A stretch of DNA of 53,538 nt. It comes from Rhodopirellula europaea 6C. Its GTDB lineage: Bacteria; Planctomycetota; Planctomycetia; Pirellulales; Pirellulaceae. Numbering within the stretch: position 1 is the stretch's first letter; every line of letters begins with the position of its first letter. The notes below the pieces were generated by a model that was given only the letters and a program-made list of their open reading frames with translations, did not search any database and had not been told where the DNA came from. Positions 6,298-34,574 of the stretch are shown here, piece after piece. The translations under genes were made by a program, and so were the position numbers. The stretch lies in contig NZ_ANMO01000119.1 in the NCBI RefSeq assembly GCF_000338295.1, forward strand, positions 1 through 53,538. The letters are read 5' to 3'.

Positions 6298-7950
6298 ATG
6301 AATGAACGTTCCTTTGCCGAAGCCGATCACTTTCGACCTTTGCGTCTGAGTGATCTTTGGCGTGCGGTCTATCGCCATCGATGGTCGGTCGTCGTTTGGA
6401 CGCTATTCCTGCTACCCATGTTGGCGTTCTGCGTCTTTCTGATTCCAGCCCAGTTCGATTCCTATTCGCAACTGCTGATCCGGTTGGGACGCGGAGCCGT
6501 TTCGATGGATCAAACCGCGACACTGTCGCCAACCGTTTCGTTGCAGGACAGTCGTGCGTCGCAGGTCAACAGCGTTCGCGAAATGTTGCATTCTCGCGCG
6601 ATCGCTCAGAAGGTCGTCAATGAAGTCGGCGTCGACCGAATTTTGGAACCGCACAGTTTGCTCTCCAAGTCGCTGCACCGTCTCGGTTCACTTATGCCGG
6701 GTGGCGACACCAAACCTATGGGCGACCTGACCGCCGAACAAGTGGAAGCCCAGATCGCAGAAGAAATGGCGATCAACAAGTTTCAGGAGTCAATGAACCT
6801 GTTCATGGCGAAGAACGCTTACACGATTGACTTGGAAGTTCGCACGGAGGATCCATTCCTCTCGCGAGATTTGTTGAAGGCTTTGGTACACGTCTATCGC
6901 GAGCACCACGCGATGGCACACAGCTCGTCGGGTTCGTCAGAGTTCTTCGAAGAGCAATCAAAAATCGCATACAAGCGAGCGATGGATGCAAAGGAAAAAC
7001 TTCGCATCGCGAAAACGGAACGAGGGATCATCGACATTGGTTCGGCTCAGTCAGCACTTCGTTCATTACTCAGCCAAGTCGAAAGCAACCTGGTCGATGT
7101 CGAACACGAACTGGCATCGATGAGTTCCCAGCGAGATCGTTTGGTTGAGCAAATCGAACAGCTACCGGAAACCTTGCAAACACAAACGATTCGCGGGATC
7201 CCTAAGGCGACGGGTGATTCGATGAGGCAAGCGTTGTACGACCTGGAAGTTCGTTACAAGGAACAATCGGTCAAACTAAGTGAAGATCATCCCAAGTTGA
7301 AGGTGCTTCGAGAGCAGCTGGCCGCTGCGACCGAGATTGCTCAAGCGGAACAAGGTGAGCGGCCTCAGACCACCGAGTCGACCAACCCGGTGCGGCAAGC
7401 CTTGATGATGTCGTGGCAGCAAACCAGCACAACGCTCGCCGGGTTAGAATCCAAACGGGACACCTTGAAGTCGCAGGCCGAGTCGCTGCACGAAGAACTG
7501 AAGCAACTCAACCAAGACGAAGTGCATTTGGCTGAACTGAGTTGGGAAAACAATTTGGCCGAAGCCGAGTACATGCGGACGGCGGAAAATCGCGACAACG
7601 CCCGACTGATCGATCAGTTGTCGTCAGGGGCAGTCAGTGAAATTGCGGTGGTACAGGAACCGTCGCTGGGACTAAAGAAGGTCAAACCGAAACGGTCAAT
7701 CCTTCTCGTTTTGGCGGCGATGCTAGCGTTCGGATTTGCCGTCGTTCAGGCATTGCTCCGCGGGCTGCTTTTGTCGCCTCATTCGGCCGATCTGGATGCT
7801 AGCCGCGACCCGCCAACTCGCCGTCGAAGTGACGCGGGACTCGGACGGTATCGGAGTTCAGACGGCGTTCGCGGTTTCAACAAGCCACCCGAATCGGAGC
7901 CCGCATTGGAATCCGAGGAGAATGGTGGATTGACGGCGGTCCCTCGCTGA
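6298..7950 (+). CDS. Wzz/GumC-like polysaccharide chain-length/export protein
   Basis: The 550-residue product has the polysaccharide co-polymerase layout. A first membrane helix lies at about residues 31-50 (WSVVVWTLFLLPMLAF). A periplasmic region of about 400 residues follows, with long Glu/Gln/Lys-rich coiled coils (about 220-300 and 350-440). A second membrane helix lies near residues 462-485 (RSILLVLAAMLAFGFAVV). The short cytoplasmic tail is rich in Arg, Ser and Glu, and there is no tyrosine-kinase domain, so a separate kinase or none is used. ATG 6298 is preferred over the in-frame ATG 6238 because the upstream 20 residues look untranslated. It controls length or export of surface polysaccharide. 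A glycosyltransferase and a deacetylase follow. Confidence 0.8.
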   Translation: MNERSFAEADHFRPLRLSDLWRAVYRHRWSVVVWTLFLLPMLAFCVFLIPAQFDSYSQLLIRLGRGAVSMDQTATLSPTVSLQDSRASQVNSVREMLHSRAIAQKVVNEVGVDRILEPHSLLSKSLHRLGSLMPGGDTKPMGDLTAEQVEAQIAEEMAINKFQESMNLFMAKNAYTIDLEVRTEDPFLSRDLLKALVHVYREHHAMAHSSSGSSEFFEEQSKIAYKRAMDAKEKLRIAKTERGIIDIGSAQSALRSLLSQVESNLVDVEHELASMSSQRDRLVEQIEQLPETLQTQTIRGIPKATGDSMRQALYDLEVRYKEQSVKLSEDHPKLKVLREQLAAATEIAQAEQGERPQTTESTNPVRQALMMSWQQTSTTLAGLESKRDTLKSQAESLHEELKQLNQDEVHLAELSWENNLAEAEYMRTAENRDNARLIDQLSSGAVSEIAVVQEPSLGLKKVKPKRSILLVLAAMLAFGFAVVQALLRGLLLSPHSADLDASRDPPTRRRSDAGLGRYRSSDGVRGFNKPPESEPALESEENGGLTAVPR

Positions 7951-8029
7951 ACGAATTTTTCCGTAGAATAGCGACATGTTCGCTCGTTTGCCCCAACTTC
8001 CTCGCTGACCCACGGCGCCCATCATCGCC

Positions 8030-9424
8030 ATCCGAATCCTAGCCGTTCACAGCTACTACCGCCTTCGTGGCGGTGAGGATGTTGTATTTGATGCGGAGAC
8101 TCAGCTGCTGGAATCGTTTGGCCACGATGTCACGCGATTCACGCGAATGAATGATTCCCTATCGGACGCGGGAGCGTTGGCGAACGCTCGGAAGACGATC
8201 TGGAACCATGGTATCGCGGATGAAATTCGCCAAGTTGTGAAGTCAAAGCAAATTGACTTGGTTCATTTTCACAACACGTTCCCCGCAATGTCCCCGGCGG
8301 TCATCAAGTCTGCTCATGATGCCGGTGCCGCCACCGTGTTGACGTTGCACAACTCGCGAATTTTGTGTCCCAAAGCGGTTTGTTTTCGTGATGGGCAACC
8401 TTGTACAGACTGCATTTCGAAGAGCTTTGCGATGCCGGCTATTCGGAACGCATGTTTCCACGACAGCCGACTGGCCGCGGGAGTTGTTGCGATTCAGAAT
8501 TGGTTGCATCGAACCCGAAAGACATACCTGCGGTCACTCAACCTAGCGATCGCACCAACCGAGTTCGTCAAAAAGCGATACGTGGACTCAGGGCATCCGA
8601 TGCCACCGATCGTTGTCAAACCTCATTTTGTCGAATCAGGTCTGCCATTCGGGCAAGGAGACGGCGGCTACGCATTGTTCGTCGGTCGATTGAGCGAAGA
8701 GAAGGGGTTGAAGGTGCTATTGGACGCTTGGGACCGTTTGACTCAGCCTATTCCGTTGAAGATCATCGGCGATGGGCCGCTGCAGCACTTGTTGAATGTT
8801 TCGCGAGACAACGTCGAGTATCTTGGACGTTTGGATCAAGACGATGTCTACAAAACGATGGCCGACGCGGCGATGTTGATTTTGCCATCGCACTGTGCGG
8901 AGTCATTTGGTCGCGTTGTCGTCGAAGCCTTTGCTTGTGGAACACCGGTTGTATGTGCAAACCAAGGCGGGCAAGCTGAGTTAGTGCATCCTGGCGTTGG
9001 GGCTTTGTTCGAAAGCGGCAATGCGAGTGAGCTGGCTTCGGTGGTTGACCGGTTCGTAGAGAACGCGGAAGAGACCATTGCGATGCGTGATGCGGCTCGT
9101 TCTGAGTTTGTTGCCAAGTATTCTGATGAGATTAATCATGCTCAGCTTCTTGATATCTATTGCCAGGCGCTTACCTTGCGTGGACGGGCCGATGCGAGCC
9201 GGATGAAGGATGTTAATTTGCGAGTCGATCCAAAACACGCGATGACTCCGCCATACTCGGGGATGTCGTCCACCGAATCCGAAGCCGCGAAACTTCCGCT
9301 TGAACCATCATCGGCCCTGACCAGCAACAATGCCTCCGAACCAGAACCGTCCCGTAGCACCGAATCGATGCGTGGTCACGACAAGCTGGGACGACGGGCA
9401 TCCACTGGATCAACGCTTGGCTGA
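8030..9424 (+). CDS. Glycosyltransferase family 4 (proposed ATC start)
   Basis: This is a GT-B fold glycosyltransferase of about 464 residues. The N-terminal domain starts RILAVHSYYRLRGGEDVV and the C-terminal domain has LFVGRLSEEKGL and the GT4 signature ESFGRVVVEAFACGTPVV (E-x7-E). It would transfer a sugar from a nucleotide donor to the growing exopolysaccharide in the cytoplasm. The first ATG in frame (8147) would delete 39 conserved residues including the RGGE loop. The fold begins at ATC 8030, and an in-frame ATG at 7976 is cut off by TGA 8006. The start is therefore non-standard, or the TGA is a lesion. The last 80 or so residues are low-complexity and overlap the deacetylase gene by 95 bp. 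Confidence 0.75.
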   Translation: MRILAVHSYYRLRGGEDVVFDAETQLLESFGHDVTRFTRMNDSLSDAGALANARKTIWNHGIADEIRQVVKSKQIDLVHFHNTFPAMSPAVIKSAHDAGAATVLTLHNSRILCPKAVCFRDGQPCTDCISKSFAMPAIRNACFHDSRLAAGVVAIQNWLHRTRKTYLRSLNLAIAPTEFVKKRYVDSGHPMPPIVVKPHFVESGLPFGQGDGGYALFVGRLSEEKGLKVLLDAWDRLTQPIPLKIIGDGPLQHLLNVSRDNVEYLGRLDQDDVYKTMADAAMLILPSHCAESFGRVVVEAFACGTPVVCANQGGQAELVHPGVGALFESGNASELASVVDRFVENAEETIAMRDAARSEFVAKYSDEINHAQLLDIYCQALTLRGRADASRMKDVNLRVDPKHAMTPPYSGMSSTESEAAKLPLEPSSALTSNNASEPEPSRSTESMRGHDKLGRRASTGSTLG

Positions 9425-11990: not shown

Positions 11991-13315
11991 GTGACAGCAC
12001 CCAGTTTTCGCTGTTCGATTCCAGCGATGACGAGCCGCCAAAGGTCACCGCTTCCAAACGTAAAGTCCCCAGGAAGAAGCGTCGTTCTTCCAGCAGCGAC
12101 GATGCGATTTCGATTAGCGAACTGACGCGTCAAATCAAATCGACGGTCGAATCGGGGTTTCCGGGCGTTTGGGTCGCCGGTGAGATCACCGACATCGCAC
12201 GTCCGCGAAGCGGTCACCTGTATTTCACGCTGAAGGATGAACGTTCGCAAATTCGAGGCGTGATGTGGCGAAGTGTTGCCGAACGTTTGCCCTTTGAACT
12301 GGATGACGGTCAAAGCGTTCTCTGCATGGGCGATGTGGAGGTCTACGCGGCACGAGGCTCTTATCAACTGGTCGTTCGCAAATGCCAACCTCAAGGCATG
12401 GGCTCGTTGCAACTCGCGTTTGCTCAACTGCAGGCGAAATTGCAAGCGGAAGGTTTGTTCGAGCCGGACCGAAAACGCGTACTGCCGCGAGTTCCCCGGC
12501 GTGTCGCGATTGTGACCAGCCCCACCGGTGCCGCGATCCAGGATTTTTTGCAAGCCGCCGCGCAGCGTCACGCGGGCATCGAAATTGTGCTCATCCCGGC
12601 CAGCGTCCAGGGACCGGGAAGCGTCGAGTCGTTGATTGACGGGATGCGAGCGGCCCACCGGATGCGGCCCCAACCCGATGTCTTGATTGTCTCTCGCGGT
12701 GGCGGATCACTGGAGGATCTCTGGTCATTCAACGATGAGCAATTGGTCCGGGCGATTGCGGCATCGAGAATCCCGACTGTCTCGGCGGTTGGACACGAAA
12801 TCGATGTCACCCTGGCGGATTTGGTCGCCGACGTTCGAGCGTTGACCCCGACCGACGCGGCGTCGCGTGTCTTGCCGGATCGCGAATCAATGGTTGCGGC
12901 ACTGGATGCACTTGGTCAGATGATGGCGACCAACTTGTTCCGGCGGATTCACTCCGAACGCCAACGTCTGGAAAACTGGGAGTCTCGTCCGATTTTTCAA
13001 AACCCGTTTGAGATGGTTCATGATCGCAGCCGAGAGCTCGACGATTGGGACGAACGTGGACGATCCGCGATTTGGCGACGGCTGGAACAAGCTGAAGCGA
13101 AACTTGCGACCGTCGCGGCGGCACAATCCGCCTTGTCACCGCTCGCCGTGCTTGCGCGTGGTTACAGCGTGACGCAAACCGATGTAGGTAAGGTCGTTCG
13201 ATCAACGGGTGATGTTCAGCCGGGCCAAACGCTGCGCACGCGGCTGACTGATGGTGATGTCATCTCAGTCGTTTCTCGGCACGAATCGAAACCAGACACA
13301 CCCGAGTCGGCTTAG
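11987..13315 (+). CDS. xseA: Exodeoxyribonuclease VII large subunit
   Basis: The 442-residue product has an N-terminal OB fold (about residues 38-135, VWVAGEITDIARPRSGHLYF) that binds single-stranded DNA. The nuclease domain follows with TSPTGAAIQDF, SRGGGSLEDLWSFND and AVGHEIDVTLAD. The C-terminal coiled coil would bind several XseB subunits. The enzyme degrades single-stranded DNA in both directions in the cytoplasm. No xseB follows in this window although it often does in other bacteria. Translation is coupled to sufS. The first 35 residues are a basic, low-complexity leader. Confidence 0.93.
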   Translation: MSDSTQFSLFDSSDDEPPKVTASKRKVPRKKRRSSSSDDAISISELTRQIKSTVESGFPGVWVAGEITDIARPRSGHLYFTLKDERSQIRGVMWRSVAERLPFELDDGQSVLCMGDVEVYAARGSYQLVVRKCQPQGMGSLQLAFAQLQAKLQAEGLFEPDRKRVLPRVPRRVAIVTSPTGAAIQDFLQAAAQRHAGIEIVLIPASVQGPGSVESLIDGMRAAHRMRPQPDVLIVSRGGGSLEDLWSFNDEQLVRAIAASRIPTVSAVGHEIDVTLADLVADVRALTPTDAASRVLPDRESMVAALDALGQMMATNLFRRIHSERQRLENWESRPIFQNPFEMVHDRSRELDDWDERGRSAIWRRLEQAEAKLATVAAAQSALSPLAVLARGYSVTQTDVGKVVRSTGDVQPGQTLRTRLTDGDVISVVSRHESKPDTPESA

Positions 13316-13355
13316 CCTTCGCCGGTCCAGTCATTCCCACCAACCCAACTCAATC

Positions 13356-14354
13356 ATGATGCGTTCATTGCTCTGCACGCTGTTTTTGTTTTCCTCAGCG
13401 GTGTCGCTCCACGCGGATTCGCCGGATTCCAAAAAGCGTGCTTGGGAAACCATCGAAACGAACGGCCATCCAACCGCGCGTCATGAGGCGGCGCTGGTCG
13501 GTTTTCAGAACAAGCTTTATTTGCTGGGTGGTCGCCGCATCAATCCGGTTGATGTCTACGATCCAGCGACCAACGTTTGGTCGGCGAAGTCCGAAACACC
13601 ATTGGAATTGCATCATTTCCAAGGAGTCGTTGTTGAAGACGCGATCTATCTGATGGGAGCGATGACCGGGCCTTATCCGAAAGAGACTCCCCTTGAGAAA
13701 GTTGTGGTCTATCATCCTTCCGAGGATCGTTTCGATTTTGTTCATTCGATTCCGGAATCACGTCGCCGCGGAGGAGCGGGCGCAATCTTTCACGATGGTT
13801 GGATCTATCTGGTTGGCGGGATTACCAACGGTCATATTGATGGTTGCCGTCGTTGGTTTGATCGCTACGACCCCAAAACGGGCATGTGGGAAATCCTGCC
13901 TGATGCACCGCATGAAAGAGATCACTTTCAAGCCGCAATCATTGGCAATCGTTTGTACGCCGCGGGCGGGCGAGTGACATCAAAACGTGATAACGCGGTT
14001 TTCTCACAAACGATCAGCAAGATCGATGTTTATGACTTTGACGCTGGCAAATGGCTATCGCCCGACCAGTGCCCGGATCTTCCGACCCAGCGTGCGGGCA
14101 ACAGCGTCGTCGCGATCGAAGGAAAGTTGGTCGTCGGTTGCGGTGAGAGTGCCGATCAAAAACAGGCTCATGACGAGGTCGAAGTTTTCGACCCCGAAAC
14201 AAAATCCTGGTCAGCATGGCCGTATATGAACCAAGGGCGACATGGCACAGGATTGGTTCAAATTGGCGAATCGTTGTACACCGCATCAGGCAGTGGCAAT
14301 CGCGGCGGCGGGCCCGAACTTGAATCGACCGAACGGTTGCTGCTTAAGGAGTAG
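13356..14354 (+). CDS. Secreted Kelch-repeat beta-propeller protein
   Basis: The 332-residue product has a signal peptide (MRSLLCTLFLFSSAVSLHA). Repeated Kelch blades follow, each with a GG pair and a downstream Tyr/Trp: LYLLGGRRINPVDVYD, IYLMGAM, IYLVGGITNG, LYAAGGRV and LVVGCGES. About six blades are visible, enough for one closed propeller. Such proteins bind ligands or sugars; an enzymatic role cannot be shown. ATG 13356 is chosen over the in-frame ATG 13251 inside xseA because the signal peptide starts there; ATG 13359 is nearly equivalent. It lies 40 bp after xseA. Confidence 0.8.
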   Translation: MMRSLLCTLFLFSSAVSLHADSPDSKKRAWETIETNGHPTARHEAALVGFQNKLYLLGGRRINPVDVYDPATNVWSAKSETPLELHHFQGVVVEDAIYLMGAMTGPYPKETPLEKVVVYHPSEDRFDFVHSIPESRRRGGAGAIFHDGWIYLVGGITNGHIDGCRRWFDRYDPKTGMWEILPDAPHERDHFQAAIIGNRLYAAGGRVTSKRDNAVFSQTISKIDVYDFDAGKWLSPDQCPDLPTQRAGNSVVAIEGKLVVGCGESADQKQAHDEVEVFDPETKSWSAWPYMNQGRHGTGLVQIGESLYTASGSGNRGGGPELESTERLLLKE

Positions 14355-14412
14355 CTGCAAGTTTCGAAGATCGTACTACGAAAGGCACCCTGGCATTGAA
14401 GAATGCTCGCGG

Positions 14413-23798: not shown

Positions 23799-24982
23799 AA
23801 CTCAGTTCCTTCATTTGGTTGGCTAGAAACGTCAATCGTTCCTCTCATCGCCTCGATCAGACCGCGGGTGACGGACAGCCCCAATCCCATGCCTTGTCCG
23901 ACGGTCGTTGTCTTGGTGCTGAAAAATGGATCAAAGATCGAATCAATCACATCATCGGCGATCCCGCATCCACGATCGATCACTCGCAAGACCAACGTGT
24001 CGTTGTTCGCGGTCACGACCAACCGGACCTCCTGACCCGGCGATGAAGCCTGGATCGCATTGTGCACCAGGTTCAATAGGATTTGCTTCAGTTCGCCTTC
24101 ACGAAGCAAGACCTCATCCACACCAAGTTCCTTTGTCGCCGGCAGTTCCGCCCGTTCCAGCTTGACCTTCACCTTGAATTTGCGTGACATCGGCAAAGCA
24201 AGCGACATCAGCTCTTCCAAACACCGACGAGCATTGAATACGTCGGCCTTTTGTTGACTCGGACGATAGAGCTGAAACATTTGGTGCGTGATACCACGGA
24301 TTCGTTCAATCTCACCATCGATCAAATCGAGTTTGTCGTAGTGCTTTACATTTGATGGCAGATGCCGTTTCAAGAGTGCAAATGCGTTGCGAATCCCGGC
24401 CAGCGGGTTGTTGATCTCGTGAGCAACGCCGGCCGCAAGTTCTCCCAGCGCGGCCAGCTTCTCCATCTTGAGTCGATGCTTTTCTAGCTGAGCAATCTTG
24501 GCTGTCCGCATCTGCACCAGATGTTCCAATTCGGCGTTCTGTTCCCGCAGTTGTTCACGCATTTGACGACGCTCGGTCACATCGCGAAAACTTGCCCGGA
24601 AGCCAAGTGAATTGCCTTCGCGGTCAGTCATGGGCTGCCAAGATACGGCGACCCAGGAGGTGGATTGATCACGATGCAAGACTTTGAACTCGACGTTGTT
24701 GCCGGTGCTGCCCTTCGATGCTTCCTCCAGGTGACGCCCCATGCGTTCGCGGTCTTCTGCGGCAATCATCGGCAACGGATAGTCATCCATCGCGAGGCAT
24801 TCTTTGGGTGTGTATCCGGTGAATCGCTCGACCGCTTGGTTCACCCACACAACCTGACCGTTGGCGGATTGCCAACTTTCCCAGTCCACCGTGCTTTCGG
24901 CGATTGCACGAAAGAACTCCGGCGGGATCGATTGCCCGCGACGAGGGAGGACTTGTGCCGGTAGGTCGTGTCTTTGCGTCAT
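23750..24982 (-). CDS. Soluble PAS histidine kinase (NtrB-like)
   Basis: The product is 410 residues without membrane segments, so a cytoplasmic sensor. A PAS domain covers about residues 21-135 ([28 protein letters not shown]). A coiled coil (about 138-175) joins it to a HisKA domain with H-box [17 protein letters not shown] near 186. The ATPase domain has [20 protein letters not shown] and GQGMGLGLS. It partners with the sigma-54 regulator encoded directly downstream; their reading frames overlap by about 49 bp. The ligand of the PAS domain is not visible. Confidence 0.92.
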
Positions 24983-25636
24983 GAACTCATCGTAGTTGAT
25001 ATCGAGTCTTCACCGGCAAAATGGCGGGTGAACAAACGCCGTCACTGGATTGTTCCACTTTGCGAGGGAACATGGTTCGCAACAACCTTTCCGCCTAGCT
25101 CAATCGCGACGTGGGGGCGAGATATAGCAATGCAAGCTGACCGAGATCTACCCGGGGCAAGCGGGATTCGAATGAACTTCTACCGCAACATCAGTTCGCT
25201 AAAGCAACGAAACTGGCAACCGAAGTGGACACGCCGGAAACCCCGGTTGACGCTCCAGCTTCTCTCGTTGTGTTTCGAAATCCGGCTCCGAAAAAACAAC
25301 CAGCTTCCGCTCGCGTCGTCGTACGCTTTGATTGCCCGCTTATATCTATGTCAAACATCGCCACCTGGTTCAGGCGGCATCATGGCGATGCTCGGAATGG
25401 TTCTGATCGGCATCCTACCTGCATCAGAGTCTTCGAAAGTGAATCCGGGTTCGGAAATCATTTCGGGAAAGCTCTTCGTTTGGGGCCAAACCGTTTTTCG
25501 AACCGTCGGAGGGAACTCTTACTGGAGGAGAAAGCCGATGCTGCCGGCATTGATTACCAGCCCGACGTCCCCAACGAATGAGGCGAAAGACGCCTCAGAA
25601 AAGACGGTCTATTTCATCGACGAATTAGGACCTGAC
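24983..25636. other. 650-bp region without a confident gene
   Basis: One long open frame (from 24968) runs rightward into the small membrane protein gene, but its first 220 codons look non-coding: basic, Trp-rich and without domains. Another frame at 25225-25581 (118 codons) is more balanced in composition but has no recognisable motif. The region holds the promoter of the leftward NtrB/NtrC pair and probably that of the rightward small gene and nhaA. Confidence 0.4.
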
Positions 25637-25825
25637 ATGTATGACAAGCAAAACACGCCGCCCAGCCAGCTTCTGACGGACGACGATGAAAAGAACTATG
25701 TCGTCGGAGTCATTTGCACCATGCTGGTTTTGCTGTTGCTGCCAGCGGCGATGATGTTTGTCTATCTGATCTTTTCCCCTGACGCATTCACCAACGGGAT
25801 GACCGTGCGTCCTGATCTGCCATAG
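25637..25825 (+). CDS. Small single-pass membrane protein upstream of nhaA
   Basis: The product is 62 residues from ATG 25637. The N-terminus is charged (LLTDDDEKN). One long hydrophobic helix follows (YVVGVICTMLVLLLLPAAMM, residues 21-40, continuing to FVYLIF), then a short polar tail. The frame is open far upstream, but sequence before this ATG does not look coding. It ends 50 bp before nhaA and may be co-transcribed. The family is unknown; a small regulator or accessory of the antiporter is a guess from position. Confidence 0.5.
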   Translation: MYDKQNTPPSQLLTDDDEKNYVVGVICTMLVLLLLPAAMMFVYLIFSPDAFTNGMTVRPDLP

Positions 25826-25875
25826 GTCGTATTCCCGCTCCATTTCTCGCCCAAGAGACCCCTCACACTGCTTGC

Positions 25876-27198
25876 ATGAATCACATCGAAACTAGACTTC
25901 CGCTACCGATTCAACCCATTGATCGGTGGCTGCGTCCGTTTGCACGCTTCTTACACATCGAGGCGACCAGCGGGCTGGTGCTGATTTTGTGTACGGTGGT
26001 CGCCCTTGTCGCGGCGAACTCCTCTTGGGCGGAGAGCTATCTGGCGTTTTGGCACACCGATCTGACGATTGCCATCGGGGACATTGTCTTTCACCACTCC
26101 CTGCACCATGTCATCAATGACGGTTTGATGGCGGTGTTCTTCTTTGTGATCGGATTGGAAGTCAAACGGGAGCTTGCTCATGGTTCCCTTTCGGATTTGA
26201 AAGAAGCAACTCTGCCCATCGCCGCTGCGATCGGTGGAATGATTGTGCCGGCCACACTTTATCTTTCAATGCAGTACGGCCAACCTGGAATGCAAGGGTG
26301 GGGCATTCCGATGGCGACAGACATCGCATTTGTCGTTGGCTGTTTGGCGATCCTCGGTTCTCGCGTGCCACACAGCCTTCGGGTTCTCTTGCTATCGCTC
26401 GCCATTGTTGATGACATCGGTGCAATTCTGGTGATCGCAGTTGGCTACACCGAGTCGCTGGACGGCCGCTATTTGTTCCTCGCTGCGGCTGCCGTCGGCG
26501 TGGTGCATCTGCTTTCGCGAATTGGAGTGCGTCGCTTTCCGCCGTATGTAATCGTCGGAATTCTTGCTTGGATTGCTCTTCACGAATCCGGTATTCACGC
26601 GACTCTGATCGGCGTGATTCTCGGGCTGATGACGCCTGCCACACCCACATTGGTTCCCGAACGTTTTCGTGAGTACTTGCACGAGAAGGAGCACGAATTC
26701 CAACCCAAGAAGTGGCGTCGCCGGTTGCACCGCGCCGAGGTGGTTCGAGAAGTCCAGCAACTCACACGAGAAACGGTCTCGCCGCTGGAGTACTTGGAGT
26801 CATCGCTGCATCCATGGACCGCGTATGTGATCATGCCGGTCTTTGCGCTCGCGAATGCGGGAGTGTTGATTGAACCAGCAAACCTGGGCGACTCGGTTGC
26901 TATCGCGGTCGTGATCGGTTTGGTCGTCGGAAAACCACTCGGGATCGTGCTGTTGAGTTGGTTGGTGATTCGATTGGGCGTGGCACGTTTACCGAGCGGA
27001 CTGAACTGGCCCATTTTGATATCGGGTAGCTTTCTCGCTGGGATCGGATTTACGATGGCATTGTTCATCGACGGCTTGGCGTTCGGAGCCGATGGACTTG
27101 ATACAGCCAAGACGGGTGTATTGGTCGGGTCCGCCATCAGTGCGATCGCTGGAATGGGTCTGCTCTTGTGGACTCTGCCAAAGCCAATTCGCGAATGA
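25876..27198 (+). CDS. nhaA: Na+/H+ antiporter NhaA
   Basis: The 440-residue product has about 12 membrane segments and NhaA signatures: FFFVIGLEVKREL near residue 95, PMATDIAF near 143, the paired ion-binding aspartates in AIVDDIGAI near 176 and FTMALFIDGLAF near 395. It exports Na+ or Li+ in exchange for protons. It is about 50 residues longer than the Escherichia coli protein because of a basic cytoplasmic insert near 265-310 (EHEFQPKKWRRRLHR). A strong hairpin at 27235-27277 follows the stop. Confidence 0.95.
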   Translation: MNHIETRLPLPIQPIDRWLRPFARFLHIEATSGLVLILCTVVALVAANSSWAESYLAFWHTDLTIAIGDIVFHHSLHHVINDGLMAVFFFVIGLEVKRELAHGSLSDLKEATLPIAAAIGGMIVPATLYLSMQYGQPGMQGWGIPMATDIAFVVGCLAILGSRVPHSLRVLLLSLAIVDDIGAILVIAVGYTESLDGRYLFLAAAAVGVVHLLSRIGVRRFPPYVIVGILAWIALHESGIHATLIGVILGLMTPATPTLVPERFREYLHEKEHEFQPKKWRRRLHRAEVVREVQQLTRETVSPLEYLESSLHPWTAYVIMPVFALANAGVLIEPANLGDSVAIAVVIGLVVGKPLGIVLLSWLVIRLGVARLPSGLNWPILISGSFLAGIGFTMALFIDGLAFGADGLDTAKTGVLVGSAISAIAGMGLLLWTLPKPIRE

Positions 27199-27234
27199 AG
27201 GAAGTTGGCGTCTCGCAAAATGATTTGAAATGGC

Positions 27235-27277
27235 GGAACGCTGCGATCGCAGGATCAATCTGCGGTCGCAGCGTTCC
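27235..27277. terminator. Bidirectional hairpin between convergent genes
   Basis: An 18-base arm (27235-27252) pairs with 27260-27277 around the 7-base loop gatcaat, with a single G-T wobble. It sits 36 bp after the nhaA stop and 18 bp after the stop of the small leftward gene. A factor-independent or RNA-stabilising 3' structure for both is likely. No long T-run is present on the plus side. Confidence 0.7.
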
Positions 27278-27294
27278 TACCGAAGGTCAGAGAT

Positions 27295-27447
27295 TTAGAA
27301 TGTCAACGAACGAAGCAGGATCGCAACCAAGAACAACAGCAAGAGAACGGTTTGTCCAAACAGGTAAACCGTTGGTGACTCGCAATTGGGTGCAACCAAA
27401 CTCGTTTTGGTGACAACAATTTCTTCGTGGGGGTTTCGCATCAACAT
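27295..27447 (-). CDS. Small C-terminally anchored membrane protein
   Basis: The product is 50 residues: a polar N-terminal half (MLMRNPHEEIVVTKT) and a C-terminal hydrophobic helix (TVLLLLFLVAILL) ending LRSLTF, the layout of a tail-anchored protein. ATG 27447 is chosen because GGAA lies 8 bases before it; an in-frame ATG 27477 has no such signal. The gene ends just before the strong hairpin shared with nhaA, which supports real transcription. Family and function are unknown. Confidence 0.5.
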   Translation of the reverse strand: MLMRNPHEEIVVTKTSLVAPNCESPTVYLFGQTVLLLLFLVAILLRSLTF

Positions 27448-27675
27448 GGTTTCGATTCCAAGAATGAGAGAAGGCATTGCCCCGTCCGTGGTATCAACCT
27501 ATTTCATTGCAAGCGTGATGCCGTCGCCTGGTATTCTGTGATTTTGCTTGGAAACACCGTGTATTCGCGTCAGAATGCCCTGCTTGCGATTCACCGATCC
27601 TTCCAATGCGTCAATCAACGTTTCCTCGCGTCAACCTTTCGCGACGCTTCTCCCTCCTTTTGTCGAGGCAATCCT

Positions 27676-28272
27676 TTGAGGTCATTCATTCGCACGATCG
27701 CGTTTGCCGGCGCAATGACGCTGGGTTGGTTGCTGACTTCTGAGTTGGCAGTCAGTCAGACAAAGTCAATCGATGCTCCAGCGAAAAATGCGACGACGGT
27801 CCGCACGTCGGACGATGAGTCTTCGCGTGATCATCCGAAAACGACGCTGGTTGAAGCGAGAACCCGTGCGGCCATCCTGCATGAGACGTTGCACGGAACT
27901 CTCCAGGTCATGCACCGCGACTTCTTCCGCGAAGACGAAGGGCTCAGCATCCCGTCTCGTTCCTTGGAAGATGTTTTTGCGGAGCTCGAGAAGAGCCACG
28001 GGATTCAATTGCGATGGATCGCGGTCGATTTAAAAGCGATGAATGTCGACAATGAACCCGAGACAGGCTTTGAAGAGCGAGCGGTGAAATCGCTGAAGAC
28101 TGGCAAGCCGAGTTTCGATGAGACCGAGAAAGACGTCTACCGTTTCGCGGGAAGAATCCGATTGTCAGCGACCTGCCTCAGTTGCCACGCTTCGCGCCGA
28201 TCCAGCAATGACGATCGGGCGGCCGCTTTGGTGATCAGCATCCCGCTATCTCAGGATCCAAGTGATCCATGA
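27676..28272 (+). CDS. Exported DUF3365 (Tll0287-like) c-type haem protein
   Basis: The product is 198 residues from TTG 27676. GAGG stands 7 bases before this TTG, and it opens a proper signal peptide (MRSFIRTIAFAGAMTLGWLL); no ATG gives one. The mature protein has one haem-attachment motif, CLSCH, near residue 172. The SLEDVF and LRWIAVDLKAMN segments and the late CxxCH placement match DUF3365, single-haem PAS-like proteins such as cyanobacterial Tll0287 thought to sense redox or small ligands. It would be periplasmic. A 49-residue membrane ORF overlaps its stop by 4 bp, suggesting a partner or anchor. Confidence 0.75.
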   Translation: MRSFIRTIAFAGAMTLGWLLTSELAVSQTKSIDAPAKNATTVRTSDDESSRDHPKTTLVEARTRAAILHETLHGTLQVMHRDFFREDEGLSIPSRSLEDVFAELEKSHGIQLRWIAVDLKAMNVDNEPETGFEERAVKSLKTGKPSFDETEKDVYRFAGRIRLSATCLSCHASRRSSNDDRAAALVISIPLSQDPSDP

Positions 28273-28418
28273 TTGCTGAACGAATATCGAAGCTGAAAAC
28301 GCATTCAAATCTGGCATGGCTAATAGCGGCTGTTGCAACATCGGTCGTGATGCCAGGTGTTGAGATCGATCGGCTGAACTTACTCGCCGGAAGTGTCAAG
28401 TCACTCAAGCAGAGCTGA
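28269..28418 (+). CDS. 49-residue membrane peptide coupled to the haem protein
   Basis: The ATG at 28269 overlaps the stop of the DUF3365 gene (ATGA), the classic mark of translational coupling. The product begins with a basic amphipathic stretch (MIAERISKLKTH), has one hydrophobic helix (LAWLIAAVATSVVM, residues 16-29), and ends in a short polar tail. Its final 14 bp overlap the 3' end of the convergent transglutaminase gene. Family unknown. It could anchor the haem protein or pass its signal to the membrane; that is inference from coupling. Confidence 0.5.
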   Translation: MIAERISKLKTHSNLAWLIAAVATSVVMPGVEIDRLNLLAGSVKSLKQS

Positions 28419-29247
28419 CTCCGGTTTGCACATTGTCAGGACTCAACCTTTCGTCCGTCGGGTTTGCATCCGTTGCCCACACGCCCATTCCCGTGCAATC
28501 GACTTCACCGCGGATGGTCGCGAAAGCCACGTCGGCGGCATCACGTCCGGTGCCGATTCGAACCAAGCCACCGACTGGTGCCAACCGAGTGGCATCAAAG
28601 AGGAACCAACGTCCGTCCAAGTAGGCTTCCATGAAACCGTGGAAGTCCGGCGGGACCAGATTGACCGCGTACCCGGACACGTATCGGGCAGGGATTCCCA
28701 ACGCACGACACAAGCTGATAGCGACGTGCGCATAGTCTCGGCACACGCCCGCACGTTGCAACAAGACATCGCAAGCGGTCGTCGTGGAATTAGTGCTGCC
28801 GGGGATGTAGGCAAGTTGCTCGAACGTCCAATTGCAAATCGCTGTGACGCGTGAATATCCGGGAACGAGGTGTCCGAACTCGTCAATCGCAAAACGATAG
28901 AGCTTGTCCGATTCGCAATATCGGCTCGGGTTGAGATACGAAAGAATGTCGCCGGGCAGCTTTTCGTAATCGGTTTCCATCAAGTCATTCGAGTCGACGG
29001 ATTCCGTCTGCAGGCCCACGGTCGCCGCGTAGCGAATCTGCAGTTCTCCCGGAGGAGCGTTCAATCGAACGACCCGGTTGCCGAGTGGGCTGACGTCACA
29101 TTCTTCGACCGGTGAAAACGGCAGCACCTCGAGCGACTCTGAAGTCACGATTTGGTGCGGATTTTTGGCGACAGAACAGTTCAAAAGGAAGATCGAGGGC
29201 GACTTCACGAGGTAGTTCAGTTGGCACCCGACATGGACGGTGTTCAT
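28405..29247 (-). CDS. Transglutaminase-like cysteine protease-fold protein
   Basis: The product is 280 residues without a signal peptide. An N-terminal beta-rich region (about 1-115) precedes a transglutaminase core whose triad is visible: Cys169 in RAGVCRDYAHV, His203 in DFHGFMEAYL and Asp218 in LFDATRL. This arrangement (Bacterial_Transglu_N plus Transglut_core) is common in bacterial proteins thought to act as peptidases or amidases. It is often found near ATP-grasp/alpha-E genes, which are absent here. Substrate unknown. Confidence 0.82.
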   Translation of the reverse strand: MNTVHVGCQLNYLVKSPSIFLLNCSVAKNPHQIVTSESLEVLPFSPVEECDVSPLGNRVVRLNAPPGELQIRYAATVGLQTESVDSNDLMETDYEKLPGDILSYLNPSRYCESDKLYRFAIDEFGHLVPGYSRVTAICNWTFEQLAYIPGSTNSTTTACDVLLQRAGVCRDYAHVAISLCRALGIPARYVSGYAVNLVPPDFHGFMEAYLDGRWFLFDATRLAPVGGLVRIGTGRDAADVAFATIRGEVDCTGMGVWATDANPTDERLSPDNVQTGVSSA

Positions 29248-29602
29248 TTCAGATCTTCGACGACGTTGAGAGACATGCGGAATCGCCTTCTATCGTACGA
29301 GGTGGACGAGACCGGCGAAGGAAGAATCCACCGCAGATTTTTGGGATTCGCCCAGGCGGATGGTGTCAATCGATCGCAAGGGGCCAGTCCAGTTCAGCCT
29401 GACTCACCGATGACGGTTTTGAGCGCACTAGCGAACCCCGATGCCACGAGGTTTTTCTCGCGACTTGGTCGTCGAATGGCGGTCCGGCCATTCAAACATG
29501 CATTTTCCAGACACAACCGCAGTGGTTCACGCCCCGAAGGAACATGTTTCCTCTGATTTCCAGATCCCATTTGGACCGAGTGGTCAAAACTGAGGCAAGA
29601 CG
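29248..29602. other. Divergent intergenic region
   Basis: These 355 bp lie between the leftward transglutaminase gene and the rightward carboxymuconolactone-decarboxylase-like gene. Frames within them are out of phase with any motif. A good ribosome-binding site (TGAGGC, 7-8 bases before ATG 29603) marks the right end. No operator or promoter is confidently seen. Confidence 0.4.
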
Positions 29603-30160
29603 ATGACTGATTTTCAAACACACACGATCGAATCCGCTCCTGAAGCCAGCAAACCACAACTGGAACACAGCCAGAAGACATACGGATTTGTTCCGAATCT
29701 GCACGCCGCGATGGCGGAGTCGCCTGCGTTGTTGGAAGCCTATCGAACGATCGCGGGGATCTTTGATACGAAGACCAATCTGAATGCGACTGAGCGTCAG
29801 ATCATCGCGATGACCAACAACCGGCTGAATGGATGCGAATACTGCATGGCCGCTCACACGTCGATCATGCAGTCGCTCAAGGTACCGGTCGACGTGATCG
29901 AGTCCTTGCGAACGGGCACACCGATCGCCGATCCAAAGCTCGAAGCACTTCGCGTCTTCGCTGAAAAGGTCAACGTCCAACGTGGTTGGATGGAAGACGG
30001 AGACATCGAAGCGCTGTTGGCGGCGGGCTACACAAACGCAACCGTTTTCGAGGTGATCGTGGGGACGGCCTACAAGGTGCTCTCGAACTACACCAATCAC
30101 ATCGCGGAAACGCCACTTGATGATGCCTTTTCAAAAAACGAATGGCACGCCGAAGCGTAG
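29603..30160 (+). CDS. Carboxymuconolactone-decarboxylase / AhpD-like protein
   Basis: The 185-residue alpha-helical product carries the CxxC redox motif in GCEYCMAAHTSIM near residue 77, with the His three residues after the second Cys, as in AhpD-like alkylhydroperoxidases. The KTYGFVPNLHAAMAESPALL start is that of the uncharacterised peroxidase-related group. These proteins reduce hydroperoxides or related electrophiles in the cytoplasm. GAGG precedes the ATG. An SDR gene follows in the same direction after 97 bp, a plausible oxidative-stress pair. Confidence 0.83.
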   Translation: MTDFQTHTIESAPEASKPQLEHSQKTYGFVPNLHAAMAESPALLEAYRTIAGIFDTKTNLNATERQIIAMTNNRLNGCEYCMAAHTSIMQSLKVPVDVIESLRTGTPIADPKLEALRVFAEKVNVQRGWMEDGDIEALLAAGYTNATVFEVIVGTAYKVLSNYTNHIAETPLDDAFSKNEWHAEA

Positions 30161-30257
30161 TTTGTGCGGTTGCTCAGCAGACGGAAGATGAAACGCAAAC
30201 AAGGCTGGCGCTATCAAGTGCCGCCGATCAAGCAAACTTGATAAAACAAACACGGAA

Positions 30258-31020
30258 ATGGGTTTCGAGATGAATTTTGAAGTGAAAGACAAAGTCGTGC
30301 TGGTCACCGGAGCGAACCGCGGCATCGGCAAAGTGATTTTGGAAGAGGCCTTGAAACGCGGTGCGTCCAAAGTGTACGCCGCGGTCCGCAACACCGACTC
30401 AGCCGATGACCTTGTGAACGAACACGGCGACCGAGTTGTCCCAGTCCGAGTGGACTTGGAGGATCCGGCATCCATCACCTCCGCCGCGAAAGTTGCAACC
30501 GACGTGGACCTCGTCATCAACAACGCTGGCGTCTTGAAGGTCAAGAATGCGTTGGATGACGACGCGATTGAAGCGTTGCAATTTGAAATGAACGTGAATG
30601 TCTACGGTCTGATTCGTATGGTGCAAGCGTTTGCTCCCGTGTTGAAAGCAAACGGCGGAGGCGCGATCGCTCAACTGAACAGTGTGGCGTCGGTCAAAAC
30701 GTTCGGAGACCTCACCACCTACTGCGCGTCGAAATCAGCCAGCTATTCAGTTACACAAGGGTTGCGTGAAACTTTGCGTGACCAAGGCACACAGGTGGTC
30801 AGTGTGCATCCAGGTCCGATCGCGACCGACATGGGCAAAAAACGCTGGCTTCGAAGACATCGCCGCCTCGCCGGAATTGGTCGCCACGGCAATCTTTGAT
30901 GCACTCGCGGAAGGACGCTTCCATGCTTGGCCCGATCCGATGGCACAACAAATCGGGGAAGCCTACCAAAGCTTTGCCGAAAAAGTCGTGGAAGCAGATA
31001 TGCAAGAGGGCGTGGCTTGA
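30258..31020 (+). pseudogene. Short-chain dehydrogenase/reductase with a frameshift in an A6 run
   Basis: The first frame encodes an SDR with the cofactor motif [16 protein letters not shown], a catalytic Ser region (AQLNSVAS) and YCASK (YxxxK). It reads normally to [10 protein letters not shown], then runs off into basic sequence ending at 30899. The expected continuation, [19 protein letters not shown], is in the next frame and runs to 31020. The switch falls at the homopolymer in ggcaaaaaacgc (30837-30848); removing one A restores one ORF of about 253 codons. Only the substrate-side C-terminal part is lost, so the truncated product would probably be inactive. Sequencing error or transcript slippage are alternatives. 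Confidence 0.75.
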
Positions 31021-31054
31021 GCCACGTCCATTTGTCACTTGATGTCAGCAACTC

Positions 31055-31077
31055 GGGCATGCTTCATTCGCATGCCC
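31055..31077. terminator. Hairpin between convergent genes
   Basis: gggcatgc (31055-31062) pairs perfectly with gcatgccc (31070-31077) around a 7-base loop. It stands between the stop of the SDR gene (31020) and that of the leftward sigma/EF-hand ORF (31084). It probably ends both transcripts, though no T-run follows. Confidence 0.5.
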
Positions 31078-31083
31078 TGTAGC

Positions 31084-31905
31084 TCACTTCCTGCGTGAGG
31101 CATCAAGCTCATCTGGTTGGATCTCGCCGTCGCCGCTCGTGTCGATTTTTTGAAACATCCGCTCCGCATTCGAGATCGCTTCCTTCTTCGAAACGATCCC
31201 GTCATTGTCGCGATCAATCTCTTTGGCGTGTCCCTTCAGAAATCCCGCCATTGCACTACGCGAACCGCCACGGCCAGAAAGTTCTGACTGCGTGAGTTGT
31301 CCATCGTCGTCGGTATCATAGCCAGCGAACGCTTTGCTCGCTCCTGCGTCGCGACGTCCTTCACCACCGCCCCGCTGTTGTGGCGTGTAGTGTTCTGTTT
31401 CAGTTTCTTGAGGAGTCACGAACTGGAACGTCGCCGCGGCGTGATAGTGACACTTGTCATCAGGACCTTTGTGCCTGTCAAAGTAGCGGCCCCGGATGAC
31501 ATCCATTTGGTGAGCGGGTAGTGCATCAACACATTCATGTAGAGCGGCAAGTATGTCGTCCCACGTGTCGCCCGCCAGCATATTGATCGCTTCAAAGTGG
31601 CGATCATCGACTGACAGCACCGATTCCTGCATCTCCAACGGGATGGTTTTCTGCTTTCGGTAGTGGGCCATCACAATGCGAGAAGCAATCCCACGAAGCC
31701 ATGGGCCAAATGGACGCTCTAGATCGCACTCATCCAACTTTTGCCAAGCCACAATCATCGATTCCTGGAACAGGTCATCGATGATCGCTTCATCGCGAAA
31801 CAGGCTGCGCAGATAGACCATCAGCATCCGCGAATTTTCGCGGGCCAGGATCTCAAACGCCAATCGTGTTTTCTGCTCTGTCAGTAACCGTTCGGTGAAG
31901 TGCAT
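31084..31905 (-). CDS. Chimeric ECF sigma factor fused to YHYH/EF-hand sequence, 5' end replaced by IS66
   Basis: The present ORF is 273 residues from ATG 31905. Residues 10-142 are an ECF sigma factor of the planctomycete type: region 2 (LRSLFRDEAIIDDLFQESMI, WLRGIASRIVMAHYRK) and the start of region 4 (ALPAHQMDVIRGRYFD). The helix-turn-helix of region 4 is then missing. From about residue 145 the sequence changes to KCHYHAAATF and EHYTPQQRGGG, like exported YHYH-domain proteins. Three EF-hand loops follow, near 197, 231 and 255 (DTDDDGQLTQSEL, DRDNDGIVSKKEA, DTSGDGEIQPDEL). The first five or so residues are encoded by the IS66 terminal repeat. It probably cannot recognise a -35 element and may be a relic. 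Confidence 0.75.
   Translation of the reverse strand: MHFTERLLTEQKTRLAFEILARENSRMLMVYLRSLFRDEAIIDDLFQESMIVAWQKLDECDLERPFGPWLRGIASRIVMAHYRKQKTIPLEMQESVLSVDDRHFEAINMLAGDTWDDILAALHECVDALPAHQMDVIRGRYFDRHKGPDDKCHYHAAATFQFVTPQETETEHYTPQQRGGGEGRRDAGASKAFAGYDTDDDGQLTQSELSGRGGSRSAMAGFLKGHAKEIDRDNDGIVSKKEAISNAERMFQKIDTSGDGEIQPDELDASRRK
31876..31883. repeat. Left target-site duplication of IS66 element
   Basis: CTCTGTCA flanks the left terminal repeat and is repeated exactly at 34253-34260. Eight base pairs is the duplication length expected for the IS66 family. Confidence 0.92.
31884..31900 (+). repeat. IS66 left terminal inverted repeat
   Basis: gtaaccgttcggtgaag; identical to the reverse complement of 34236-34252. 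Read leftward it also encodes residues FTERLL of the sigma ORF. Confidence 0.92.
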
Positions 31906-31964
31906 CTTGCATGGTGGTTTAGCTTGGGTGGATTGATTTTGTTTCGCTTCAGAAAGGTGATTCG

Positions 31965-32267
31965 ATGGCCGCGAGTTTTGGGCGTGATTTTTGGGAAGAG
32001 GCTTTTGATCGGTTCGAGCGGTCAGGCTTGACGGTGGCGGAGTTCTGCGAAGTCGAGGGTTGCTCCGTGCCAACTTTCTACGCTTGGCGGAAGAGGATTG
32101 GGGCCCAGGGCCAGCCGAAGTTCACCGAGCTCGTTGTCGAGCGTGCAGCTGAATCAAGTTCCATTGAGATCGAACTGTCCGGTGGCGAGCGTCTTCGGTT
32201 GACCGGCGTTGTAGATGCGGACAACCTTCAAACCGTGCTGCGATGCCTGGAACAGGCGTCATGCTGA
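31965..32267 (+). CDS. tnpA: IS66 accessory protein TnpA
   Basis: The 100-residue product opens with a helix-turn-helix (SGLTVAEFCEVEGCSVPTFY, then AWRKRIG) typical of IS66 OrfA, which binds DNA. The C-terminal half is a small beta-rich region (SIEIELSGGERLRL). The end overlaps tnpB by 7 bp. All three IS66 proteins are thought to be needed for transposition. Confidence 0.88.
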   Translation: MAASFGRDFWEEAFDRFERSGLTVAEFCEVEGCSVPTFYAWRKRIGAQGQPKFTELVVERAAESSSIEIELSGGERLRLTGVVDADNLQTVLRCLEQASC

Positions 32268-32614
32268 GTATTGCCGCAAACACTCGGATCTTCGTTTGCA
32301 GTGAGCCGACTGATATGCGGAAGAGCTTCGATGGGCTCTGCGGACTGGTCACCGACTCGTTGGGCCAAGATCCGCTTTCGGGAGCCCTCTTCCTGTTTGC
32401 CAATCGTCGGCGTGACCGCATCAAGCTGTTGGTTTGGGACGGCGACGGATACGCACTTTGGTACAAGCGACTCGAAGCAGGCACGTTTCAAATCCCACAA
32501 GCCAAAGCACTGCAGTCGAGCGTCATCATCTCGCAAGGTGAACTGGCGATGCTGCTCGATGGCATCGACCTGACATCGGTCAAGCGACGGAAGCGATACA
32601 AACGGGCTGCGTGA
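32261..32614 (+). CDS. tnpB: IS66 Orf2-like protein TnpB
   Basis: The 117-residue product starts at ATG 32261 within the tnpA end (ATGCTGA). It has the hallmark TDMRKSFDGLCGLV followed by ALFLFANRRRDRIKLLVWD and GYALWYKRLEAG, the conserved core of IS66 Orf2 proteins, whose biochemical role is unknown. An upstream in-frame ATG (32243) lies inside tnpA and is less likely. Confidence 0.92.
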   Translation: MLSIAANTRIFVCSEPTDMRKSFDGLCGLVTDSLGQDPLSGALFLFANRRRDRIKLLVWDGDGYALWYKRLEAGTFQIPQAKALQSSVIISQGELAMLLDGIDLTSVKRRKRYKRAA

Positions 32615-32694
32615 TTGGAGATCCGCCATCGAGGTGAAATGGCAATTCGTTATAATGTCATCGTTCACTTCATTCTCTCGTCAGCGCCGAAACC

Positions 32695-34230
32695 ATGACG
32701 GACATGGACGTCGAATCGCTTCCCGATGACGCAGCTCAGCTGAAGTCAATGATGAAGCAATTGATCCGTGAACATCAACTCGACAAAGAACAGCTCGAGC
32801 ATCGCTTGGCGATGCTACTGCGAAGTAAGTATGGTCCTCGCAGCGAGAAGCTTGATCCTGACCAGTTGAAACTCTTTGACCTCGGTCGTGAGGATGTGGA
32901 CGAGACCGGCGACGAACCGGCCGAAGAAGATGACAAACCAAGACCACCACGTCTTGGTCACGGGCGCCGTCGACTTCCCGCCGATTTACCTCGCACTCGC
33001 GTGGAGCATGAGCTTCCCGAAGGCGATCAGCAGTGCCCCTGCTGTGGAAAAACCCGAAAGCGGATTGGCTGGGAGACCAGCGAACAGGTCGAATACGAAC
33101 CGGCGAAGCTCTATGTCATCGAGCACGCTCGGGCCAAGTATGCCTGTGGCGATTGCGAAGAGAACGTCGTGACTACTCCCAAGCCGGCTCAGCCAATCGA
33201 CAAAGGCCTGGCCGCCCCGGGACTGTTGGCGGCGATCGCGGTGGGCAAGTACGGCGATCACTTGCCACTGTACCGAATGGAAGAAATCCTCGGCCGCAGT
33301 GGCTTGTCGGTCTCGCGGAGCACGCAGTGCGATTGGATGCGTCGGATCGCTGAGCTGGTCAATCCAGTCGTGTCACGGATGAAGTCGGAGATTCTGGCCA
33401 GCCGTGTGATCTGGACCGATGACACGACCGTTCCGGTGCTCGATCCGACTCAAAGCAAAACCAAAACAGGCCGAATGTGGGTCTACATTGGCGATCTTCG
33501 CCATCGTTATGCGGTGTTCGATTACACGCCGGATCGGAAAGGGGCTAGGCCGCGAGAGTTCTTGGGTGAGTACTCCGGTTACCTGCAAGCCGACGCGTAC
33601 TCGGGCTACGACCAACTGTGCGATCATGGCAACATGACCGAGGTGGCTTGCTGGGCACACGCACGTCGCAAGTTCCACGAAGCGAAAGACTCGGCGCGGG
33701 TCGGTGCTACGCACGCGCTCAACCTGATTGGTCAGCTGTATGGTCTCGAACGCAAGGCTTCCAAGCTGGATGCTGCGGCGCGACGGCAGCTTCGTCAAAA
33801 ACATGCGGTGGGAAAGTTGGAGGCGTTTGCATCATGGCTGGATCAACAGTCGGTCGAAATCTTGCCCAAGAGCCCGCTTGGCAAGGCGATCAACTACGCT
33901 CGTAATCAATGGACGGCGTTGTGTCGTTACACCGAAGACGGAGAGCTATCGATCGACAACAACTTGTCCGAGCGAACGATTCGATGTGTTGCGATCGGTC
34001 GTAAGAACTGGATGTTTGCCGGGAGCGACCGAGGTGGACAAACCGCCGCGACGCTAATGAGCTTGATCGCGACTTGCAAGCTGCTTGGTGTGGATCCCTA
34101 TCGGTACCTTCGTGTTCTGCTGACAGAACTGCCACGTCGCCAAACCGACCACCTGGAAGAATTCCTTCCCGACCGCTGGCTGCAAGCTCACCCCGAAGCA
34201 AAACTCACCGACCACGGCAAGCAGAAATAA
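32695..34230 (+). CDS. tnpC: IS66 transposase TnpC
   Basis: The product is 511 residues, full length for the family. A leucine-zipper-like start (about 15-45) is followed by a zinc-binding segment (CPCCGKTRKR near 114, with a second Cys pair at YACGDCEEN). The DDE catalytic core has WTDDTTVPVL near 240, ADAYSGYD near 299 and the Glu in DNNLSERTIR near 424. The C-terminal block LLGVDPYRYLRVLLTELP closes it. It cuts and joins the element ends. The gene is separated from tnpB by 80 bp. Confidence 0.95.
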   Translation: MTDMDVESLPDDAAQLKSMMKQLIREHQLDKEQLEHRLAMLLRSKYGPRSEKLDPDQLKLFDLGREDVDETGDEPAEEDDKPRPPRLGHGRRRLPADLPRTRVEHELPEGDQQCPCCGKTRKRIGWETSEQVEYEPAKLYVIEHARAKYACGDCEENVVTTPKPAQPIDKGLAAPGLLAAIAVGKYGDHLPLYRMEEILGRSGLSVSRSTQCDWMRRIAELVNPVVSRMKSEILASRVIWTDDTTVPVLDPTQSKTKTGRMWVYIGDLRHRYAVFDYTPDRKGARPREFLGEYSGYLQADAYSGYDQLCDHGNMTEVACWAHARRKFHEAKDSARVGATHALNLIGQLYGLERKASKLDAAARRQLRQKHAVGKLEAFASWLDQQSVEILPKSPLGKAINYARNQWTALCRYTEDGELSIDNNLSERTIRCVAIGRKNWMFAGSDRGGQTAATLMSLIATCKLLGVDPYRYLRVLLTELPRRQTDHLEEFLPDRWLQAHPEAKLTDHGKQK

Positions 34231-34235
34231 CACCG

Positions 34236-34252
34236 CTTCACCGAACGGTTAC
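34236..34252 (-). repeat. IS66 right terminal inverted repeat
   Basis: cttcaccgaacggttac, the exact reverse complement of the left end. It starts 6 bp after the tnpC stop. Confidence 0.92.
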
Positions 34253-34260
34253 CTCTGTCA
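34253..34260. repeat. Right target-site duplication of IS66 element
   Basis: CTCTGTCA, identical to 31876-31883. On the minus strand it covers the codons just after the proposed original TTG start of the sigma gene (TTG ACA GAG). Confidence 0.92.
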
Positions 34261-34574
34261 AACTTATCGCTCCCGACGAGTGAACACCAATACTGTCGAT
34301 AGGGGACCGATTGGTGGCAAAAATCCGTTCCGTTTTCCCGGATTGTCTTGGCTATTTGCAGTCCGACGAACCTCGATGTTCAGGCCGCACGTCTCGACAC
34401 GCGGGTTGTGTAGAATGCGATCGGCTTTGCTGGATGCGAACAAGTCCCGTTCGATTTGGGAGCTATCTCGGCCTGGCAACGCTCACGGTTAGCGAGCGTC
34501 AATCGCGATACGAAATCGCTACGGTAAAAAGTTGCCGATATCGGCTAGCACCATCACTTCATAGAGAGACAACA
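34261..34574. other. Former divergent promoter region of sigma gene and DUF1080 operon
   Basis: These 314 bp originally separated the leftward sigma gene from the rightward DUF1080 gene. The stranded sigma ribosome-binding site reads GGGAG on the minus strand at 34274-34270. The right end carries AGAGAGA about 5 bases before ATG 34575. Open frames here are short and without motifs. Confidence 0.5.

Follow-up and report, generated by a model that had tools for sequence, protein, structure and literature searches.

The window, a stretch of 53,538 nucleotides from Rhodopirellula europaea 6C (genome G000), carries on its reverse strand a single open frame that runs from an ATG at 31905 to a stop at 31084, as given by the listing of open reading frames, and that would extend to 329 codons if counted from a TTG at 32073, the earliest possible start, which lies within an adjoining IS66-family element (Table 1). 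From N- to C-terminus the encoded protein (P0001) consists of region 2 and the start of region 4 of an ECF sigma factor (to residue 143), two scraps of a YHYH protein and three EF-hand loops.

Table 1. Features of the locus in window coordinates; identities and missing lengths are relative to the related genome G005
Feature	Position	Strand	Details
Chimeric ORF	31084..31905	-	273 codons + stop
ECF sigma remnant	31477..31883	-	Region 2 and first part of region 4, -35-binding helix-turn-helix gone; 81% over 136 aa to the G005 sigma factor, 76% DNA identity
Join 1, sigma gene to YHYH gene	31477..31484	-	5352 nt (~5.35 kb) missing
Scrap 1 of YHYH gene	31427..31484	-	Around HKGPDDKCHYHA; 84% over 58 nt
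Join 2, within YHYH gene	31427..31442	-	225 nt missing; short imperfect repeat CGACGACGTTTCC / CGGCGACGTTCCA
Scrap 2 of YHYH gene	31344..31442	-	ATFQFVTPQ...GEGRRDA; 92% over 99 nt
Join 3, within YHYH gene	31342..31344	-	252 nt missing
EF-hand tail of YHYH gene	31087..31342	-	To native C-terminus; 95% over 85 aa to the G005 protein
EF-hand loops in tail	31317-31282, 31215-31180, 31143-31108	-	Canonical loop pattern
Target-site duplication, left copy	31876..31883	.	CTCTGTCA, 8 bp; contains last two bases of native TTG start
IS66-family element	31884..34252	+	2369 bp; perfect 17-bp inverted ends (31884-31900, 34236-34252)
IS66 ORFs (three)	31965-32267, 32243-32614, 32695-34230	+	TnpA/TnpB/TnpC-like
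Target-site duplication, right copy	34253..34260	.	CTCTGTCA, 8 bp
Old upstream flank of sigma gene	34261..34330	-	Now ~2.4 kb off, beyond the IS66 element; by-eye resemblance to the sequence before the G005 sigma start

Domain content of the chimeric frame

Region 2 of sigma factors binds the RNA polymerase core and the -10 element, and region 4 supplies the helix-turn-helix that binds the -35 element. Pfam analysis of the chimera identified Sigma70_r2 (PF04542) at residues 20-86 with 40.8 bits (cut-off 24), and EF-hand families exceeded their cut-offs at the C-terminus, the best being PF13405 at 42.5 bits. For region 4, PF08281 and PF04545 gave no match at E-values up to 0.1, the intact sigma protein of G005 scoring 45.4 bits with PF08281; likewise, PF14240 (YHYH domain) had no match in the chimera and 53.3 bits in the G005 protein. 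The best NCBIfam match, TIGR02989 (Sig-70_gvs1), covers residues 16-144 with 81.9 bits, below its cut-off of 124.55. With the members of this ECF family, from Rhodopirellula/Verrucomicrobium, the chimera shares region 2 and the start of region 4, but lacks the rest of region 4 and its helix-turn-helix. Homology to the G005 sigma protein ends at residue 143 (window position 31477), and when the window was searched with that protein for an intact region 4 in an overlooked frame, only chance-level matches were obtained, the best of those reaching region 4 having an E-value of 0.88 (28332-28520). The chimera therefore stands, and the earlier sequence-only reading of one open frame of more than 270 codons, beginning as a sigma factor and continuing as YHYH/EF-hand sequence, is borne out by its length and by the Pfam matches at both ends. 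That reading placed a single change of identity near 31480, but the YHYH part comprises two scraps and the frame contains three joins.

With the YHYH/EF-hand proteins (PF14240 plus EF-hand families) the chimera shares the EF-hand tail, but it lacks their N-terminal part, retains scraps only of the YHYH region and has one EF-hand-like loop fewer, a loop that, by eye, was taken by the 252-nt deletion. The three remaining loops (residues 197-208, 231-242 and 255-266) are canonical 12-residue calcium-binding loops, and the tail is predicted to bind calcium. A search against the sequences of solved structures returned partial matches to expected relatives only (lanmodulin, other EF-hand proteins, CnrH and SigW). 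Sigma factors of the ECF41, ECF42, ECF56 and CorE types also combine a sigma part and an extra domain in one chain; their regulatory C-terminal extensions, however, are added to the sigma factor, whereas the EF tail of the chimera replaces most of region 4. The extension of SigG1, for example, is reported as an addition to the sigma2-sigma4 core (PMC7730460; see also PMC8103513, PMC8999054). Among the papers retrieved by literature searches, none describes a sigma/EF-hand or sigma/YHYH fusion in its title or the opening lines of its abstract.

Separate genes in relatives and the joins in the chimera

In G005, a genome of the same genus, the two halves are separate genes on the same strand about 4.5 kb apart, the sigma gene at 7777-8325 of locus L041 and the YHYH gene at 12850-14406. 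They are the first and last members of a row in the order ECF sigma factor, probable anti-sigma factor, metallophosphatase, unknown protein, redoxin-like protein and YHYH/EF-hand protein. The second gene has no Pfam match and owes its probable assignment to its position, and the gene order and common strand suggest that the row is an operon. The order sigma, anti-sigma, metallophosphatase and, at the end, the YHYH gene recurs in G010, G001, L048, L049, L050, L053 and G235; some of the middle genes are undetected or spaced apart in several of these rows, and among them the redoxin-like gene was seen in G010 (including L047) and G001 only. Thus, the proposal that a sigma gene had fused with its neighbour is upheld in that relatives carry separate genes, but these are not adjacent, with four genes between them in G005. 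Compact rows were observed in two further genomes: in G261 (L100, 1201-3125) a sigma gene, an anti-sigma gene and a gene for a short EF-hand protein whose EF tail is the same, and in G169 (L101, 551-2845) a similar row with one TGA stop within the tail match. No YHYH-domain match was found in the 4 kb read for these two rows. The EF tail may be what is tied to this sigma system.

A match at an E-value of up to 1e-25 was obtained in 58 of 241 family genomes, G000 being one of the 58, as counted by eye from the search list with up to 10 candidates scored per genome. Besides G000, 13 genomes carry both halves unfused within a single contig and on the same strand, separated by 1.3-9.8 kb, and G000 is the only one with the halves in one frame.

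DNA alignment of the chimera with G005 resolves it into four collinear blocks, the sigma block at 31483-31878 (76%), two blocks at 31427-31484 (84%) and 31344-31442 (92%), and the tail, which falls within a longer block at 25509-31342 (95.8%). The lengths missing at the three joins are relative to G005, rather than to the intact row of the window's own lineage. The reading frame is kept across all three joins, for which the odds are 1 in 27 by chance in the absence of selection. As assessed by eye, a short imperfect repeat coincides with join 2, and joins 1 and 3 show slight similarity only. These collinear blocks, together with the separate halves in relatives, lend strong support to the earlier suggestion that deletion fused two genes and left a relic. 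We propose that a conserved planctomycete gene row, taken as an operon, collapsed by deletions, one of about 5.35 kb that would have brought codon 143 of the sigma gene up against the YHYH region of the terminal gene, and two others of 225 and 252 nt that would have taken away a further portion of the YHYH protein as well as the linker preceding the EF-hands. The deletions are evident from the comparison with G005, and their order is our reconstruction; illegitimate recombination involving short repeats is their probable origin, most clearly at join 2.

Genome-wide searches of G000 with the G005 proteins revealed no counterpart of the anti-sigma, metallophosphatase or unknown genes (for the putative anti-sigma factor, no match anywhere at E-values up to 0.01), a single weak match to the redoxin-like protein (29% identical) and no match to the YHYH protein outside the chimera. 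The next-best match to the sigma half beyond the chimera is 29% identical. Several row genes have distant copies elsewhere in G004 and G005 but not in G000. For the anti-sigma, unknown and YHYH genes, such copies cluster at G004:C1:6204948-6208536 and 5244939-5247691 and at G005:C3:76683-79501, with 32-35%, 64-72% and 59-61% identity, respectively, to those of the G005 row. In G004, which outside the tract described below is the closest relative for most of the stretch compared, about 420 bases lie between the aligned flanks, and a search of this interval for remnants of the row gave chance matches of 18-20 bases only.

A tract of some 7 kb (~24.4-31.34 kb; 24400-31342), with the EF tail at its edge, shares 92.4-98.6% identity with G005 in bins of 500 bases, a range that holds for 14/14 bins across 24501-31500, one of which has 98 aligned bases only; outside the tract, most bins of the 20-44 kb compared are 72-87% identical. 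The two halves of the chimera differ correspondingly from G005, with dS of 1.85 for the sigma half and 0.21 for the EF half. Both observations would fit a variant, compatible with a relic, in which foreign DNA recombined in, the join is the illegitimate end of that event and the sigma half alone is native. We consider this variant unlikely, though worth keeping in view. The comparison with G004 leans the other way, since the closeness of G005 to G004 tends to be greater inside the tract than outside, albeit with bins that overlap in range. This would imply transfer from a G000-like lineage into G005, leaving both halves, and hence the EF tail, native to G000, in which case plain deletion suffices. 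We also rejected the conclusion that the sigma half evolves faster, as drawn from the G005 comparison alone, because the EF half appears young as a result of the recombination tract.

A second fused protein and the IS66 insertion

The same fusion is present in a metagenomic protein from ENA (P0002; 266 amino acids, 11 member sequences, 3 contigs), which is 94% identical to the chimera over 97% and, in the alignment, carries the same three joins. Since the genome of the window is a draft in 273 contigs, an assembly error might have been suspected as the source of the fusion; the occurrence of all three joins in P0002 rules this out for practical purposes, and we give it negligible weight. The closest intact relatives (P0003-P0005, among the best 120 of 169 matches) align with half of the query at 79-96% identity, and P0003 and P0004, intact sigma factors of 182 amino acids that are 95-96% identical to the sigma half, represent the unfused state in near kin. 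According to Pfam assignments, there are no other proteins with both sigma and EF-hand domains among the best 120 of 169 matches.

The sequence-only reading made no mention of the IS66 element that adjoins the gene and contributes its first seven residues. The ORFs, inverted ends and 8-bp duplication of this element place it in the IS66 family, for which we take a target duplication of this length to be the rule; its TnpA-like ORF has only weak helix-turn-helix matches, below cut-off. It is the only copy of this element found in G000, and no close full-length copy was found in 12 other genomes of the genus, the best-scoring match being 84% over 279 bases (G002). Closing the site on paper restores a native TTG start like that of G005, the element having entered behind the first base of this codon. 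Residues 1-7 (MHFTERL) and one base of codon 8 derive from the IS66 end, such that MHFTERLL precedes the native TEQKTR, and the ATG at 31905 is within the element. This ATG could still start translation. No sigma-70-like promoter was found in 31000-32200, which is weak evidence as the chance expectation is only 0.6. P0002 begins at the native position (MTEQ) and hence seems to lack the element, and for this reason we place the insertion later than the fusion. The element would then have entered the TTG start of an already fused gene, parting it from its upstream region.

Sequence change and possible function

Compared with G005, the ratio of amino-acid-changing to silent change is 0.07 for the sigma half and 0.10 for the EF half (4 amino-acid-changing and 10 silent differences), and four neighbouring genes range from 0.016 to 0.28. 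The EF half shows no excess and is no looser than its neighbours, and the ratio of the sigma half must mostly reflect the time before fusion. P0001 and P0002 share 265 aligned positions and differ at 16 of them, of which the sigma half accounts for 7, the scraps for 5 and the tail for 4. In an alignment of homologues (117 of the best 120 of 169 protein matches), residue 100, which is V, I, L or M in 117/117, is Asp in the chimera, and residue 118, K or R in 117/117, is Ile; Leu62 is the common residue of the family (109/117), and is Arg in P0002-P0004. P0001 and P0002 each retain an open frame and the canonical pattern in every one of the three EF loops. On balance, the radical substitutions suggest that the sigma half is decaying, and the EF half appears to be without an excess of changes.

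The loss of functional domains, native start and upstream region leads us to conclude that the chimera is very probably a decaying relic of deletion and fusion, most likely without function. The chimera no longer has the greater part of region 4 and of the YHYH domain, the N-terminal segment of the exported protein, or the native start with its upstream region, and given the known roles of the lost parts it is very unlikely that the protein is a working promoter-recognising sigma factor or an exported calcium binder. Fusion pseudogenes form when internal deletion in an operon joins the first and last genes with loss of the middle, the frame staying open by chance or because the event is recent. 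The chimera is the same in kind, but its three in-frame joins and its presence in a second lineage seem unusual.

Several features favour a working protein, in which sigma region 2 would bind the RNA polymerase core and the cytoplasmic EF-hand tail would make it a calcium-responsive decoy or competitor: the frame was kept through three deletions and in two lineages, the EF loops are intact and the EF half evolves no faster than neighbouring genes. Against this, the IS66 element in the start codon severed the old upstream region, conserved sigma sites have undergone radical changes, the row partners were not found in G000, bar the redoxin-like match, and the fusion is absent from the other 240 of the 241 family genomes searched. 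Moreover, a protein database contains only those copies that are still open, which biases the evidence for function that P0002 provides. We consequently regard a working protein as highly improbable, and the calcium-responsive decoy or anti-sigma-like protein envisaged by the sequence-only reading finds little support, the same open fusion in P0002 notwithstanding. More improbable still is its most specific form, a new small protein kept by two related lineages that titrates the core in response to calcium and for which the IS66 end supplies the start codon in G000. Were such a protein produced and retained, it would represent a naturally occurring decoy built on sigma region 2 with a calcium-binding tail. 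Taken as a decaying relic, the chimera offers a worked case of how a regulated row of genes may die, in which the end genes fuse, the frame survives for a while and a mobile element hits the start, and it serves as a warning that a chimeric frame may be a relic even when it is open and scores well for domains at either end.

The gene adjoining the chimera, which encodes an SDR-family dehydrogenase (30258-31020), contains one extra base relative to G005 at a run of six A residues (~30837-30842), resulting in a frameshift that is either a true mutation or a homopolymer sequencing error.
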